DNA of 38,361 nucleotides. Origin: Nitrosopumilales archaeon (GTDB lineage: Archaea; Thermoproteota; Nitrososphaeria; Nitrososphaerales; Nitrosopumilaceae). Of this stretch, positions 558 to 8,094 are shown in pieces. The DNA is taken from the NCBI GenBank assembly GCA_016838825.1, contig JAEHKU010000007.1, forward strand, positions 1-38,361, given 5' to 3'. A program made the position numbers and the translations under genes. Position 1 is the first letter of the stretch, and each line of letters opens with the position of its first letter. The notes beneath the pieces were generated by a model. It worked only from the letters and a program-made list of their open reading frames with translations, had not been told where the DNA came from and ran no database searches.

Positions 558-1652
558 ATGAATGATAGAGTTATTTTACACATAGATTTTGATTATTTTT
601 TTGCTCAATGTGAAGAATTACGTTCTCCTGAACTAAGAACTAGGCCTGTTTGTGTATGTGTGTTTTCAGATAGAGGTGGTGATAGTGGAGCGATTGCTAC
701 CGCAAATTACGTTGCAAGAAAGTATGGGGTCAAATCCGGATTACCTATTAGATTTGCAAAAAAAAGACTAGAAGGTGTTTCCAATGCAACTTTTCTACCA
801 ACTGATTTTGAATATTATTCTGAGATTTCTGGAAAAGCAATGGACATAATCAAAGAATATGCAGATATCTTTGAGTACGTTGGAAAGGATGAAGCATACT
901 TGGATGTGTCAAAAAGAACAGAAGGAAGTTTTGATAAAGCAAGCCACCTTGCTCAACAGATAAAAAATTCTGTACGTGGTTCAGTTAAACTCACGTGTTC
1001 AATTGGAATATCACCGAATAAGTTAGTTTCAAAAATTGCTTCGGACTTTCAAAAACCAGACGGCTTGACTGTTGTTCCACCTGATAAGGTACAGACTTTT
1101 TTGGATCCATTACCTATAAGAGCGATCCCAGGTATAGGCAAAAAAACCGAGGATAAATTCTCAGAGCCTGGTCTTGAATCTGTTTCTCAACTTAAAAAAC
1201 TAGATGTCTTTTCACTCACTAAACAATTTGGAAGAAAGATGGGCACATACATTTACAACTCCATAAGAGGAATTGATGAAGAACCTGTAGCAGAAAGACC
1301 AGATGCCAAACAGTATAGTAGAATAGTAACACTAAGAAAGGATTCAAAAGACTATGATTTTTTGGCCAAAAGTATTGAGACCTTATGCAAGGACATTCAT
1401 TCTACAGTTTTAAAAAACAACATTATGTTCAAATCAATAGGGATACAATTTGTTCAAACAGATCTTGCAAACAAAACAAAATCTAGAATGCTGAAGAATC
1501 CTACTTCAAGTCTTGAAGAAATGCAAAAAGCAGCCTTACAGCTTTTACGAGATGCTTTGCAAGGCCAAGACAAACTTGTTCGAAGGATAGGAGTAAAAGT
1601 TTCAGATTTGTATCATACCGTAGGCCAGGATACCTTAACACGTTATTTTTAG
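558..1652 (+). CDS. dinB: Y-family DNA polymerase IV (DinB/Dpo4 type)
   Basis: A translesion DNA polymerase that copies past damaged bases with low fidelity. It has 364 residues, the usual length for Dpo4. The N-terminal catalytic motif HIDFDYFF supplies D10, and GKDEAYLDVS supplies D111 and E112, so all three metal-binding carboxylates are present. F15 sits where Dpo4 has its steric-gate Tyr. The SIGISPNKLVSKIASD block of the palm is intact, followed by a helix-hairpin-helix-like thumb (IPGIGKKTEDKF) and the little-finger domain. The last eight residues, QDTLTRYF, form a PIP box (Q357, L360, Y363, F364) for binding the PCNA clamp. The 3' end overlaps the convergent peptidase gene by 4 bp. 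Another PIP-box repair protein (NreA) lies 1.4 kb downstream. Confidence 0.95.
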   Translation: MNDRVILHIDFDYFFAQCEELRSPELRTRPVCVCVFSDRGGDSGAIATANYVARKYGVKSGLPIRFAKKRLEGVSNATFLPTDFEYYSEISGKAMDIIKEYADIFEYVGKDEAYLDVSKRTEGSFDKASHLAQQIKNSVRGSVKLTCSIGISPNKLVSKIASDFQKPDGLTVVPPDKVQTFLDPLPIRAIPGIGKKTEDKFSEPGLESVSQLKKLDVFSLTKQFGRKMGTYIYNSIRGIDEEPVAERPDAKQYSRIVTLRKDSKDYDFLAKSIETLCKDIHSTVLKNNIMFKSIGIQFVQTDLANKTKSRMLKNPTSSLEEMQKAALQLLRDALQGQDKLVRRIGVKVSDLYHTVGQDTLTRYF

Positions 1653-2128
1653 AAAGCTATACCTACGTGAGCTGCTAATTTCTTGTGTTCCTCAGCTGTT
1701 ATCCATTCAACTTTCAAGTAATCAATGATTTCTTTGTTACTCATACCTAATCTCTTTGCTTCCTTTACAGTTATGTCGTATGCCTCAATCTCAGTTGGTC
1801 TATCTACGTAACAATATGATTTATCATATAGATTTTTTCCAGCTCTTTGTTGCTTGACATGAACTAGCTCATGAACAATATCAAGATACAAAATTTTAGG
1901 ATCAGCATCTTGAAGATGGTTTAGTCCCACCGTTATTGTGGCATCATCGTTTTTTACTGACATGTAATGATCTTTTTTTTCAACGATGACCTTAGTTTTT
2001 GCAAATACATCATCGACTTCTTTCTGGGTTTTAAAAACGTCCAACAATACTTTGCTAGGTTTTAATCCTATGAAAATTTCTTCTAGTGTGTATATTCCTG
2101 GTGTTACAAGATTCTTTATTGTAATCAA
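1649..2128 (-). CDS. Putative zinc metallopeptidase (HExxH), 159 aa
   Basis: A small predicted soluble protein with a zinc-peptidase signature: HELVHVKQQ supplies HExxH, and about 24 residues later TEIEAYD supplies a Glu suited to be the third ligand (gluzincin-like ExxAY). There is no signal peptide, so it probably acts in the cytoplasm or at the inner membrane face. The start is TTG at 2128. It overlaps the stop of the upstream archaeosortase-like gene in the sequence TTGA (2125-2128), which suggests translational coupling. The pairing hints that it acts with the sortase-like protein, but no substrate can be read from the sequence. I do not know a specific family name. Catalysis is inferred only from the motif. 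Confidence 0.7.
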   Translation of the reverse strand: MITIKNLVTPGIYTLEEIFIGLKPSKVLLDVFKTQKEVDDVFAKTKVIVEKKDHYMSVKNDDATITVGLNHLQDADPKILYLDIVHELVHVKQQRAGKNLYDKSYCYVDRPTEIEAYDITVKEAKRLGMSNKEIIDYLKVEWITAEEHKKLAAHVGIAF

Positions 2129-3063
2129 AGTGTTTGATCTTTTTTTGCTGCTTCTAGTCTTTTAAGGCGTCTTGTCTCCACAAATGTCACTATCATCAAG
2201 AAAATGAAAAGCCAGGGGAGAAACATAATTTCACCAGCAACAGAATGAAATTCTTCAAACTCTTCTGGGTTTGTTGAAACTTTAAGTGCAAAGATTGACA
2301 GAGAAAAGATTCGAATCAAATTAACTCCAATCGTCCCAATAATTCCTAACACAAAATAGACTGCTTTTCTCTTTCGTTGAATATTCATCTTGAACAAAAA
2401 GGCCATCATTACAAGTGAGTAGATTATTACGCTGTGTACTCCCGCAGAAGGCCAGAAAACTTGAAGTGCGAATGGACCATGTTCACCATTCAAAAACATC
2501 AGATTATCTCGAGCAGTAGCAACTCCTAAATCAAACAAAGTAATCAGCCACACATTTGCTTGAATCAAGGGTGGAACGACATACTGAAGTGGTCCTAGCG
2601 TATCATATGGGAAAAATGCGTCAAGCGACAAAATGATCGCACTACCTAAAAGAAATATTGGTCCTGCAGGAGAAATCCTGATCCAGCGTTTTCCAAATAA
2701 TATACTCATCGAAGCAACTACAAAGACTGCCATTACTATAAAATCCCACATCCAGATCCATGAAAATATGAGTTCTACATTATATTGTAAAGCTACATCT
2801 TCAATATAATCACGCAATCCAAATTCTAACGACACAAGATAAACAATGGTGAGGACAGCTAACGGAACAATTGCAAGTAGTCTTCCTTTTGGAATTTTTA
2901 TTTTCAATCCTACAAGTTCTGCAACAATAAATGCAAGGGCAAAAAGAAAACCACCTCTTCCTTGATTCCAACTCAAACTAAAAGTGTCAGGAAATGCTGC
3001 AAGTGCAAACAAAATTGGACTTGCAATTAGTATGATTGCAAAAATTAGATTTTTGTTTTGCAT
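2125..3063 (-). CDS. Archaeosortase/exosortase-family membrane protein (thaumarchaeosortase-like), Ser in place of Cys
   Basis: A 312-residue polytopic membrane protein with about eight hydrophobic segments. Archaeosortases and exosortases are membrane transpeptidases that cut C-terminal sorting signals of exported proteins using a Cys-Arg-His triad in transmembrane helices. Here the matching blocks are PSAGVHS (S206 at the Cys position), NLIRIFS (R251) and EFHSVAGE (H273), in the right order and spacing. A Ser-for-Cys exchange fits my recollection of the family restricted to Thaumarchaeota, but I cannot verify it here. I see no PEFG-type sorting signal on any secreted protein in this window. 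A TATA-like element near 3087-3096 lies ~28 nt before the ATG, consistent with a leaderless mRNA. It is coupled to the HExxH peptidase downstream. Confidence 0.8.
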   Translation of the reverse strand: MQNKNLIFAIILIASPILFALAAFPDTFSLSWNQGRGGFLFALAFIVAELVGLKIKIPKGRLLAIVPLAVLTIVYLVSLEFGLRDYIEDVALQYNVELIFSWIWMWDFIVMAVFVVASMSILFGKRWIRISPAGPIFLLGSAIILSLDAFFPYDTLGPLQYVVPPLIQANVWLITLFDLGVATARDNLMFLNGEHGPFALQVFWPSAGVHSVIIYSLVMMAFLFKMNIQRKRKAVYFVLGIIGTIGVNLIRIFSLSIFALKVSTNPEEFEEFHSVAGEIMFLPWLFIFLMIVTFVETRRLKRLEAAKKDQTL

Positions 3064-3099: not shown

Positions 3100-4260
3100 T
3101 TAGAAGAAATCGGTTATTGATTTTTGTTTCACTTGTCTTAACATTTCTCCTTTAGCTAACCATTCGGTTTTGGCTATGCTCATTTTCTGACATGCGATAT
3201 CAAGTGCTTCGTCAAAGCTAGATGTTACGTATGGTTTCTGTTTCATTGCCATTCTTACACCTTCACGTATCTGCCAAACTCCAACAGGAACGGCATACTC
3301 AGGCCTAATTTCACGAAGGACTAGAGATGCTGCCTGGATTTTATTTCTTTTTAGGTACTCTGCAACTGCCAACTTTGCTGCAAAGTAGGCACCAGCAATT
3401 GTAGGGTAGTGGTCAATTCCTCTTGCATCTTCAAAATCTGCTCCGAATCCCACATTTCCATGCTGATCATACCATGCTTCTTCCATTTCGAACATCCATC
3501 TATGAGGAAATATGACCACTTGAAAGTAATTCCCAATATGAGAAAATGAAAAAATTTTGCAACTGTCTATTAGATCAAAATCCAATATTTCAGAAACCAG
3601 TGATCTTGAAATTATTTCATCAGTGGCAGTAATACTCCATCTAGTTGGCACTAGTTTTCTTTTTTTACCTAGCATACCAATGCTAAAGCACTTTTGAATT
3701 CTTGTGATCTCAATACCTCTATTGTAAAGCTCAGTTACAGAATCCTGTGCTAGTAAATCTTTATCGTAAAAAATTTTCTGAATACTTTTATCTGAACTAG
3801 AAGTTGAAAACTCAACACTTTTTATTTCTCCCAATGGACCAAATGGGGGGCTATACCCATCGATGGTAGTTGTAGGACTGGTATTTTTAACAAATGAAAT
3901 GTCAGAGTCAATTGATCTTGATGACATAGCAACCTCTTGTAACTTCTCAATGTATTTTCCCTCTACTTGAGAAACATTTGTTGGTTGGACACCCCTTACC
4001 AAACTTAGTCGATAGTTTACAATTTCCTCTAAACTCTTTCCTAGCCAACTTTCTGGAGAATCAAACAATGTGGTGTCTCCATGGATTGGGGGAACCATAG
4101 GACCAACAAGAACCTTCGGATATCCATAAGTGCCTACAAAAACCGAGGGAGGTGTTGAGCCACTTAGAAAGTTAGATGAAAGCAAGTTTCCGTAACGTGA
4201 CAGATATTCCTGCCAGTGAGATTCTATTGCCTTTCGTAGATCTGCTGCAGTTAATTTCAA
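3100..4260 (-). CDS. nreA: NreA-family DNA repair protein
   Basis: A 386-residue archaeal repair protein of the Nre family. In Haloferax volcanii NreA contributes to mitomycin C resistance with PCNA and the UvrABC system; the reaction is not established. The conserved N-terminal region includes FVGTYGYPKVLVGPM and SPESWLGKSLEEIV, and the C-terminal Nre region includes REIRPEYAVPVGVWQIREG. The N-terminal zinc finger of NreB is absent. The protein ends in QKSITDFF, a textbook PIP box (Q379, I382, F385, F386). The start is TTG at 4260. It lies upstream of the archaeosortase gene on the same strand, but that gene has its own TATA-like element, so co-transcription is uncertain. Confidence 0.9.
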   Translation of the reverse strand: MKLTAADLRKAIESHWQEYLSRYGNLLSSNFLSGSTPPSVFVGTYGYPKVLVGPMVPPIHGDTTLFDSPESWLGKSLEEIVNYRLSLVRGVQPTNVSQVEGKYIEKLQEVAMSSRSIDSDISFVKNTSPTTTIDGYSPPFGPLGEIKSVEFSTSSSDKSIQKIFYDKDLLAQDSVTELYNRGIEITRIQKCFSIGMLGKKRKLVPTRWSITATDEIISRSLVSEILDFDLIDSCKIFSFSHIGNYFQVVIFPHRWMFEMEEAWYDQHGNVGFGADFEDARGIDHYPTIAGAYFAAKLAVAEYLKRNKIQAASLVLREIRPEYAVPVGVWQIREGVRMAMKQKPYVTSSFDEALDIACQKMSIAKTEWLAKGEMLRQVKQKSITDFF

Positions 4261-6492: not shown

Positions 6493-8094
6493 TTAAGAAT
6501 TAATTATATCTGAAATTATACAGTATCCGTAAGAAGGAGTCACAGAAGGATACATTATACTATTACGGTCTGTGCTGTGTTGCAACGCAATCGTGTGTCC
6601 AATTTCATGCTTCATAATGTACTCAACTGTATCCAAGTCAAGCAGCTCGAAATCTCCATTACACGCAAAATTTCCAATTGTAACTTCAACTATTCCTTTG
6701 CCTAGTGTGGCGTGTCCTAGTGCTTCGATATCTCTTACGATCCACATTACCCATACATTTGCGTCATATTTGTCGTTAGTGTAAGTGAAGTTAAAGACAG
6801 TAGGTTTGTCATTCCAAGTAAAGTCTTGTGACGCCCAGTGATCTAATGCTTTGTCTAGAGTTGGGATATAATCAAATGGAAGTCCTAGTGGTTGATCATT
6901 AATGTAAACATTGTAGTACACAGTTACTTTACCATCTTCTTCAGTGTATGTAGGATCAGGAAGTACATCTAATGCAACCTGGATTTGTTGTTCAAGGTTC
7001 CATTTCTCAACATCACGCAAGTATTTCTTCTTTAATTCCCAGCTAGGATTTGGAGACTCTATGTATCTTTTTTCTTTAGCAATATTTTTTCTGACATCAT
7101 TAAGGTATTTTTTGAGAAAAGGTTCATCTATCTGCTGTGAGATTGAGTCTAAGGTGATTGTAGAATCACTACTATCACCAACCTGAATTATTCCATTAGC
7201 AATCAAGAATTCTACACTTGATAGAAATTCTTTGTCTGAAATCTGATTATTTGACCACCACCCAGCTGTATTCTTGACCCAATCAGGTATCTTTGCTGTC
7301 TTTTCTTCAGAAACTGATTTTGGTATAACTTTGATAATATTTTGTTTGACCAAATATTGAATTCCTTGGAGAAAATCGGATTGACCAATGTTTCCTTCAG
7401 ACCACCACTTGGCATTGTTCTTTATCCAAGAAGGCACGGATGACCCAACATGAGATTTTCCCTGCTCTATTTTTAGTGAAATGACTGATTCCTGGTCTGG
7501 GTAATACTTTGCTTTTATTGTCGTTACATAATCTTTGTAGTTTGAAGCGATTTTATTACTAGAATCTATTTCGAGTACCTTTTCAAAAAAGTAGAGCGAG
7601 TCTGCATACTCTCCAAGACTTCCAAAACCAACTCCCATGCCATTTAATGCTTGTACGTCATCACGATTAATTTCCAATACTTTGTAAAATTGTATTATGG
7701 AATCGGAATGCCGTTCAAGTTTACTCAATGCAACAGCTTTGTTCTTCAAAGCAATAGTATTTGTTGGATCAGTTTCTATAATATCATCATAAATTGAGAC
7801 TGCATTAGCATATTTTTCAAGTTTAACTAGAGAAATACCTTTAAGATTTAAAACTTGAGAATTATCAGGATCAAACCCTAAAGCCTTATCAAAATAAACA
7901 ATCGCTTCTTCAAAAAAATATTTTTTATATTTGTCAAGCCCCGCTTCTACTAATGCTTCAAAACCTGCCGACTTGATATCAATTTCTTCTTCTGATATAG
8001 AGAAAACTGGCAATATTGGAGTGATTGCATTAAAAACCAAAACAACAGAAGCGATAATTGCTAATATGGTCTTGCCTAAATTATGAGCCATCAC
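6493..8094 (-). CDS. Secreted TPR / double PDWVKN-WW module / metzincin-type protease
   Basis: A 533-residue exported protein. An N-terminal signal or anchor segment (~residues 8-31) is followed by about four TPR repeats (~45-190). Two tandem ~36-residue modules follow at ~220-256 and ~270-305, each with W(I/V)KNxAxWW and a closing hydrophobic strand; such modules are common in thaumarchaeal exported proteins. The C-terminal domain (~385-533) is a metzincin-like peptidase: H496, E497, H500 and H506 give the HExxHxxxxxH zinc site, and SIMYP with M514 gives the Met-turn. It probably cleaves proteins outside the cell or in the pseudoperiplasm. A TATA element at 8117-8123 is ~26 nt from the ATG, so the mRNA is likely leaderless. 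Confidence 0.88.
   Translation of the reverse strand: MMAHNLGKTILAIIASVVLVFNAITPILPVFSISEEEIDIKSAGFEALVEAGLDKYKKYFFEEAIVYFDKALGFDPDNSQVLNLKGISLVKLEKYANAVSIYDDIIETDPTNTIALKNKAVALSKLERHSDSIIQFYKVLEINRDDVQALNGMGVGFGSLGEYADSLYFFEKVLEIDSSNKIASNYKDYVTTIKAKYYPDQESVISLKIEQGKSHVGSSVPSWIKNNAKWWSEGNIGQSDFLQGIQYLVKQNIIKVIPKSVSEEKTAKIPDWVKNTAGWWSNNQISDKEFLSSVEFLIANGIIQVGDSSDSTITLDSISQQIDEPFLKKYLNDVRKNIAKEKRYIESPNPSWELKKKYLRDVEKWNLEQQIQVALDVLPDPTYTEEDGKVTVYYNVYINDQPLGLPFDYIPTLDKALDHWASQDFTWNDKPTVFNFTYTNDKYDANVWVMWIVRDIEALGHATLGKGIVEVTIGNFACNGDFELLDLDTVEYIMKHEIGHTIALQHSTDRNSIMYPSVTPSYGYCIISDIINS

Follow-up and report, generated by a model that had tools for sequence, protein, structure and literature searches.

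The window, by which we mean the whole stretch of 38,361 nucleotides that was analyzed, contains a gene for an archaeosortase-like membrane protein with serine in the position of the catalytic cysteine. The question raised by this locus is whether such a protein uses serine chemistry in the membrane or has another job. The archaeosortase-like identity, which a preliminary description had proposed from the nucleotide sequence, was borne out by a profile search against NCBIfam. The 312-aa protein matches TIGR04297 (thaumarchaeosortase) with 523.7 bits over residues 7–308 (curated cut-off 250 bits) and the superfamily profile TIGR04178 with 47.8 bits over residues 201–293 (cut-off 23 bits), so that significant similarity to sortase-like families is present; its score for Pfam Exosortase_EpsH is slightly below the cut-off. 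Among the other named archaeosortases, archaeosortase C (TIGR03762) comes nearest in score (33.2 bits, E 4.6e-8), but the window protein stays far under the cut-off of that profile (100 bits). The window protein is the sole exosortase/archaeosortase-family match in the assembly. A second sortase, of the Cys type, was looked for and not found in this 93% complete assembly. Judged by sequence, the window protein is clearly an orthologue of the thaumarchaeosortases, a family that has already been named and whose members are archaeal membrane enzymes that probably cut and anchor cell-surface proteins.

Coordinates of the features discussed in the text (nucleotide positions in the window; aa, residues of the window protein)
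Feature	Position	Strand	Description or basis
Thaumarchaeosortase gene	2125..3063	minus	ATG start, 312 aa, multi-helix membrane protein, TIGR04297 match
S206 codon TCT	2446..2448	minus	site occupied by the catalytic Cys in related proteins; alignment, computed from gene start 3063
R251 codon, conserved triad Arg	2311..2313	minus	invariant in alignment A1 and in the larger alignment
H273 codon, conserved triad His	2245..2247	minus	invariant in alignment A1 and in the larger alignment
Long hydrophobic helices	4-23, 37-50, 59-93, 99-130, 133-150, 163-176, 205-225, 230-262, 266-311 (aa)		AlphaFold2 model
Y-family DNA polymerase, downstream of sortase	558..1652	plus	Pfam IMS; positional landmark, no part in function assumed
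Nre family DNA-repair protein, upstream of sortase	3100..4260	minus	Pfam Nre_N/Nre_C

When the window protein is aligned with Cys-type homologues, its S206 (motif WPSAGVHS) shares a column with the catalytic cysteine (WPCAGIES and similar), which confirms the replacement first noticed in the stretch PSAGVHS. R251 and H273, already named as the Arg and His of the triad, occupy the conserved Arg and His columns, which are kept in the Ser and the Cys types. A conserved cysteine elsewhere that aligns to the active site was looked for and not found, since no column of the Ser clade contains Cys in more than 6% of the sequences, and the aligned core of the window protein and of 65 other Ser-type proteins is free of it. 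A hidden catalytic cysteine is ruled out for the window protein, which has no cysteine whatever. It thus differs from the cysteine archaeosortases of the ArtA type (MEROPS C106); it combines the TIGR04297 and TIGR04178 scores, the Arg and His residues, a polytopic architecture and PEFG-CTERM proteins in its genome.

Homologues were collected from the genomes of the phylum and from Bathyarchaeota records and aligned with the window protein using MAFFT. Position 206 is Ser in 97/97 distinct homologues of the window's order and Cys in 60/60 distinct Cys-type homologues, which nearly all lie outside this order and include Bathyarchaeota (the Cys-type set comprised 62 sequences with a complete triad, 60 of them distinct, and one fragment). 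All Ser-type sequences stem from the window's order, where they reach deep lineages with scores of 131 to 244 bits, under the TIGR04297 cut-off. The only Cys types inside the order (L154 and L155) represent a separate, distant archaeosortase. This second protein (motif DGPCTG; L154 715-1611, L155 1029-1925) was observed in the genomes G455 and G447 alongside the Ser type. A sequencing or assembly error as the source of the serine was ruled out by its recurrence in the order. Serine is the rule for the family, and nothing was found that sets the window protein apart. A thaumarchaeal subfamily with such a change, which the preliminary description mentioned, is real in the sense that every sampled member of the order carries Ser. 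The curators of the family may have recorded the serine already.

The codons give an indication of how the exchange arose. Among the 97 sequences, S206 is encoded by TCT (51), TCA (26), TCG (12), or TCC (8) and never by AGY; the Cys types use TGC (42) or TGT (18) at this position. The pattern would be explained by a change from TGY to TCY and subsequent synonymous drift without an amino acid change. No return of Ser206 to Cys was detected, though a single base separates TCY from TGY, and the presence of four synonymous TCN forms together with the lack of such a return points to strong selection for serine. In the Ser clade, 27 of 305 columns are invariant, S206, R251, and H273 among these, and no more than five columns distinguish the Ser clade from the Cys clade. 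Trees built with column 206 omitted required a minimum of one Cys/Ser change (two tree analyses) or two (one tree, in which the deepest forks are unresolved). A single origin of the serine is compatible with the sequence data (support 75 in one tree).

AlphaFold2 (60 sequences) returned a confident multi-helix model with a mean pLDDT of 94.5 and a pTM of 0.87. The fold search against the PDB yielded no match with E <0.001, the PDB sequence search none that was meaningful, and the structure copies searched yielded no solved member of the fold. The topology was derived from the helix boundaries and from the basic loops 54-61, 124-129, 225-235, and 297-311, which were assumed to be cytoplasmic. 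With this orientation, S206 and H273 would adjoin loops of the outer face, and R251 would be located in the outer half of its helix.

The neighborhood of the gene offers no functional clue. The Y-family polymerase adjoins the sortase in 59/59 Ser-type loci examined, window included, and the upstream neighbor Nre is kept in many, not all, members of the order. The constancy of the former and the frequency of the latter point to vertical inheritance of the sortase locus. A 159-aa ORF (1649-2128, minus strand) shares 4 bases with the end of the sortase gene and contains a zincin-like motif (DIVHELVHVKQQ). Searches of Pfam and NCBIfam gave no match for it at E 0.001, and only some genomes of the window's own family (L091, L095, L105-L108) have a homologue at the corresponding site. 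Further away, inspection of the translation by eye revealed a zinc-protease-like motif (HEIGHTIALQHS) near the end of a 533-aa ORF (6493-8094, minus strand, GTG start).

Candidate substrates were sought as PEFG-type C-terminal signals in the full genome, a search that the preliminary description had suggested, and six proteins match PEFG-CTERM (TIGR04296) above the curated cut-off of 25 bits. In the tails examined, an IPEFG-type motif is followed by a hydrophobic stretch and then by a basic tail, for example VVPEFGTIAMMILAVGVVSIIAFTAKTKLIPRL and IIPEFGTIAAMILAVAIISIIAVSAKAKLRILPNIR; a plastocyanin-like copper protein and a Kelch protein are among their carriers. The window protein thus agrees with the TIGR04297/TIGR04296 system in its full-length match far over the cut-off, in the tail signal, and in lineage. 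Under curated cut-offs, the sortase is present in 69 and the PEFG tail in 70 of 398 phylum genomes, and all 69 are contained in the 70. The remaining PEFG genome, G142 (L071), lies outside the order and combines a PEFG-like match (E 9.6e-8) with a Cys-type sortase. Among 250 genomes of the order, 114 have both, 17 only the sortase, 7 only PEFG, and 112 neither. The 17 sortase-only genomes, in which no PEFG match was seen at E 0.001, are mostly deep lineages or fragmentary assemblies, and six of the seven PEFG-only genomes are 66-83% complete. In the window's own family, both occur in 82/82 genomes. The genomes of genus g16 (2.8-3.4 Mb, single contigs) have neither the sortase nor a PEFG match above cut-off. 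Part of this co-occurrence among related genomes reflects shared ancestry. In deep Ser-type lineages (L172, L173, L185), three tails with a PEFP-like motif, a hydrophobic stretch, and basic residues were noticed, which are possibly the tail signal of those lineages. As regards the S-layer, it is absent from Nitrosocosmicus (PMC11559005), and a paper on the S-layer of N. maritimus mentions neither PEFG nor a sortase; we do not claim the main S-layer protein as a substrate. The homology, the conserved S, R, and H positions, the fixation of serine in the order, and the co-occurrence with PEFG are direct results.

From these results we infer that Ser206 is the nucleophile, and likewise where the tail is cut, what kind of acceptor is used, and how His and Arg contribute. 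The thaumarchaeosortase orthologue is rather probably a membrane peptidase, presumably a transpeptidase, in which Ser206 replaces Cys as the nucleophile. Its substrates would be secreted proteins that carry IPEFG, a hydrophobic helix, and a short basic tail at the C-terminus, and the tail helix would position the IPEFG site at the outer face of the membrane. There, His273 could activate the hydroxyl group of Ser206 for an attack on the peptide bond near PEFG, and Arg251 may steady the oxyanion or the substrate. The helix would be freed and an ester-linked acyl-enzyme would form on S206. Resolution of this ester by a putative lipid or glycolipid amine or hydroxyl acceptor, or by water, would leave the protein anchored to the surface or release it from there.

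No assay of any thaumarchaeosortase was found in the literature searched. The C173S variant of ArtA from Haloferax was reportedly found inactive by Abdul Halim et al. in 2018. As Cys173 is critical in that enzyme (PMC9263693), a functional serine would therefore need compensating changes. ArtA/PGF-CTERM and the system described here belong to the same superfamily (TIGR04178) and follow one overall scheme, in which a motif is followed by a helix and a basic tail. In contrast, the triad of ArtA is Cys173, Arg214, and Arg253 (PMC9263693) instead of Ser, Arg, and His, its tail motif is PGF instead of PEFG, and the PssD-type decarboxylase of the Haloferax route is absent here. In the speculative model for Haloferax, a thioester on the ArtA cysteine is resolved by an ethanolamine lipid derived from PssA and PssD (PMC7157517). 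A PS decarboxylase was not found in the window's genome, and PF02666 was detected in only 3 of 398 phylum genomes. Because the enzyme is missing from nearly the whole phylum, the Haloferax acceptor looks unavailable, and its route is unlikely in lineages of either the Ser or the Cys type. We rejected the idea that serine arose because the lipid-amine route was lost, since Cys-type lineages of the phylum also lack the decarboxylase. Rhombosortase, which we take to be unrelated in sequence to the window protein, belongs to the rhomboid family and provides a functional analogy at most. It is a membrane serine peptidase tied to C-terminal tripartite tails, in this case GlyGly-CTERM (PMC3237569).

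If the serine enzyme were a hydrolase only, it would cut the PEFG tails, water would resolve the ester, and the proteins would be released instead of anchored. Ester acyl-enzymes hydrolyse readily, and the lack of the decarboxylase in 395/398 phylum genomes would deprive the amine-lipid route of the Haloferax model (PMC7157517) of an enzyme. However, this lack does not track with the serine, as it extends to the Cys-type lineages, and sorting systems of such kind appear to keep their substrates anchored to the surface (PMC11980579). We consider hydrolysis alone unlikely. It is quite unlikely, too, that the protein is a catalytically dead archaeosortase which binds PEFG-tailed proteins or acts as their escort and leaves them uncut. 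A lost nucleophile usually marks a pseudoenzyme, and the reported effect of C173S on ArtA would agree with it. A dead site is expected to drift, though, whereas S206 does not vary even in deeply diverged members, down to about 131 bits for TIGR04297 within the order, and the Arg and His are invariant as well.

The 17 genomes of the order with a sortase and no PEFG match could also mean that the protein acts on targets other than PEFG tails and that the co-occurrence stems from shared ancestry. We regard this as very improbable given the complete co-occurrence in the window's own family, the single-contig g16 genomes without either partner, and the PEF-type tails in some deep lineages. Serine chemistry is favored over another job by the strict conservation of the residue and by the co-occurrence with PEFG. 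Chances are about equal that a wider scenario holds, in which a membrane Cys transpeptidase became a Ser transpeptidase in one archaeal order, once or twice, forming an acyl-enzyme of the ester type and using an acceptor that is not the archaetidylethanolamine suggested for Haloferax, with the Ser form extending past the TIGR04297 range to deep lineages below the cut-off, some of them PEFP-tailed.

The window protein is a member of a known family, in which the exchange of Cys for Ser is real, family-wide, and strongly conserved. As a family member it is ordinary; it is of interest as a natural Cys-to-Ser switch that putatively turned a cysteine enzyme into a serine enzyme. Should the serine be catalytic, an exchange that would be expected to inactivate such an enzyme has succeeded in nature, and the five columns separating the two clades could reveal what makes the serine work. 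A PEFG-CTERM multicopper oxidase and ammonia monooxygenase show correlated transcription in a lake population (PMC9122916). A catalytic serine would also bear on the retention of copper proteins at the surface of ammonia-oxidizing archaea.
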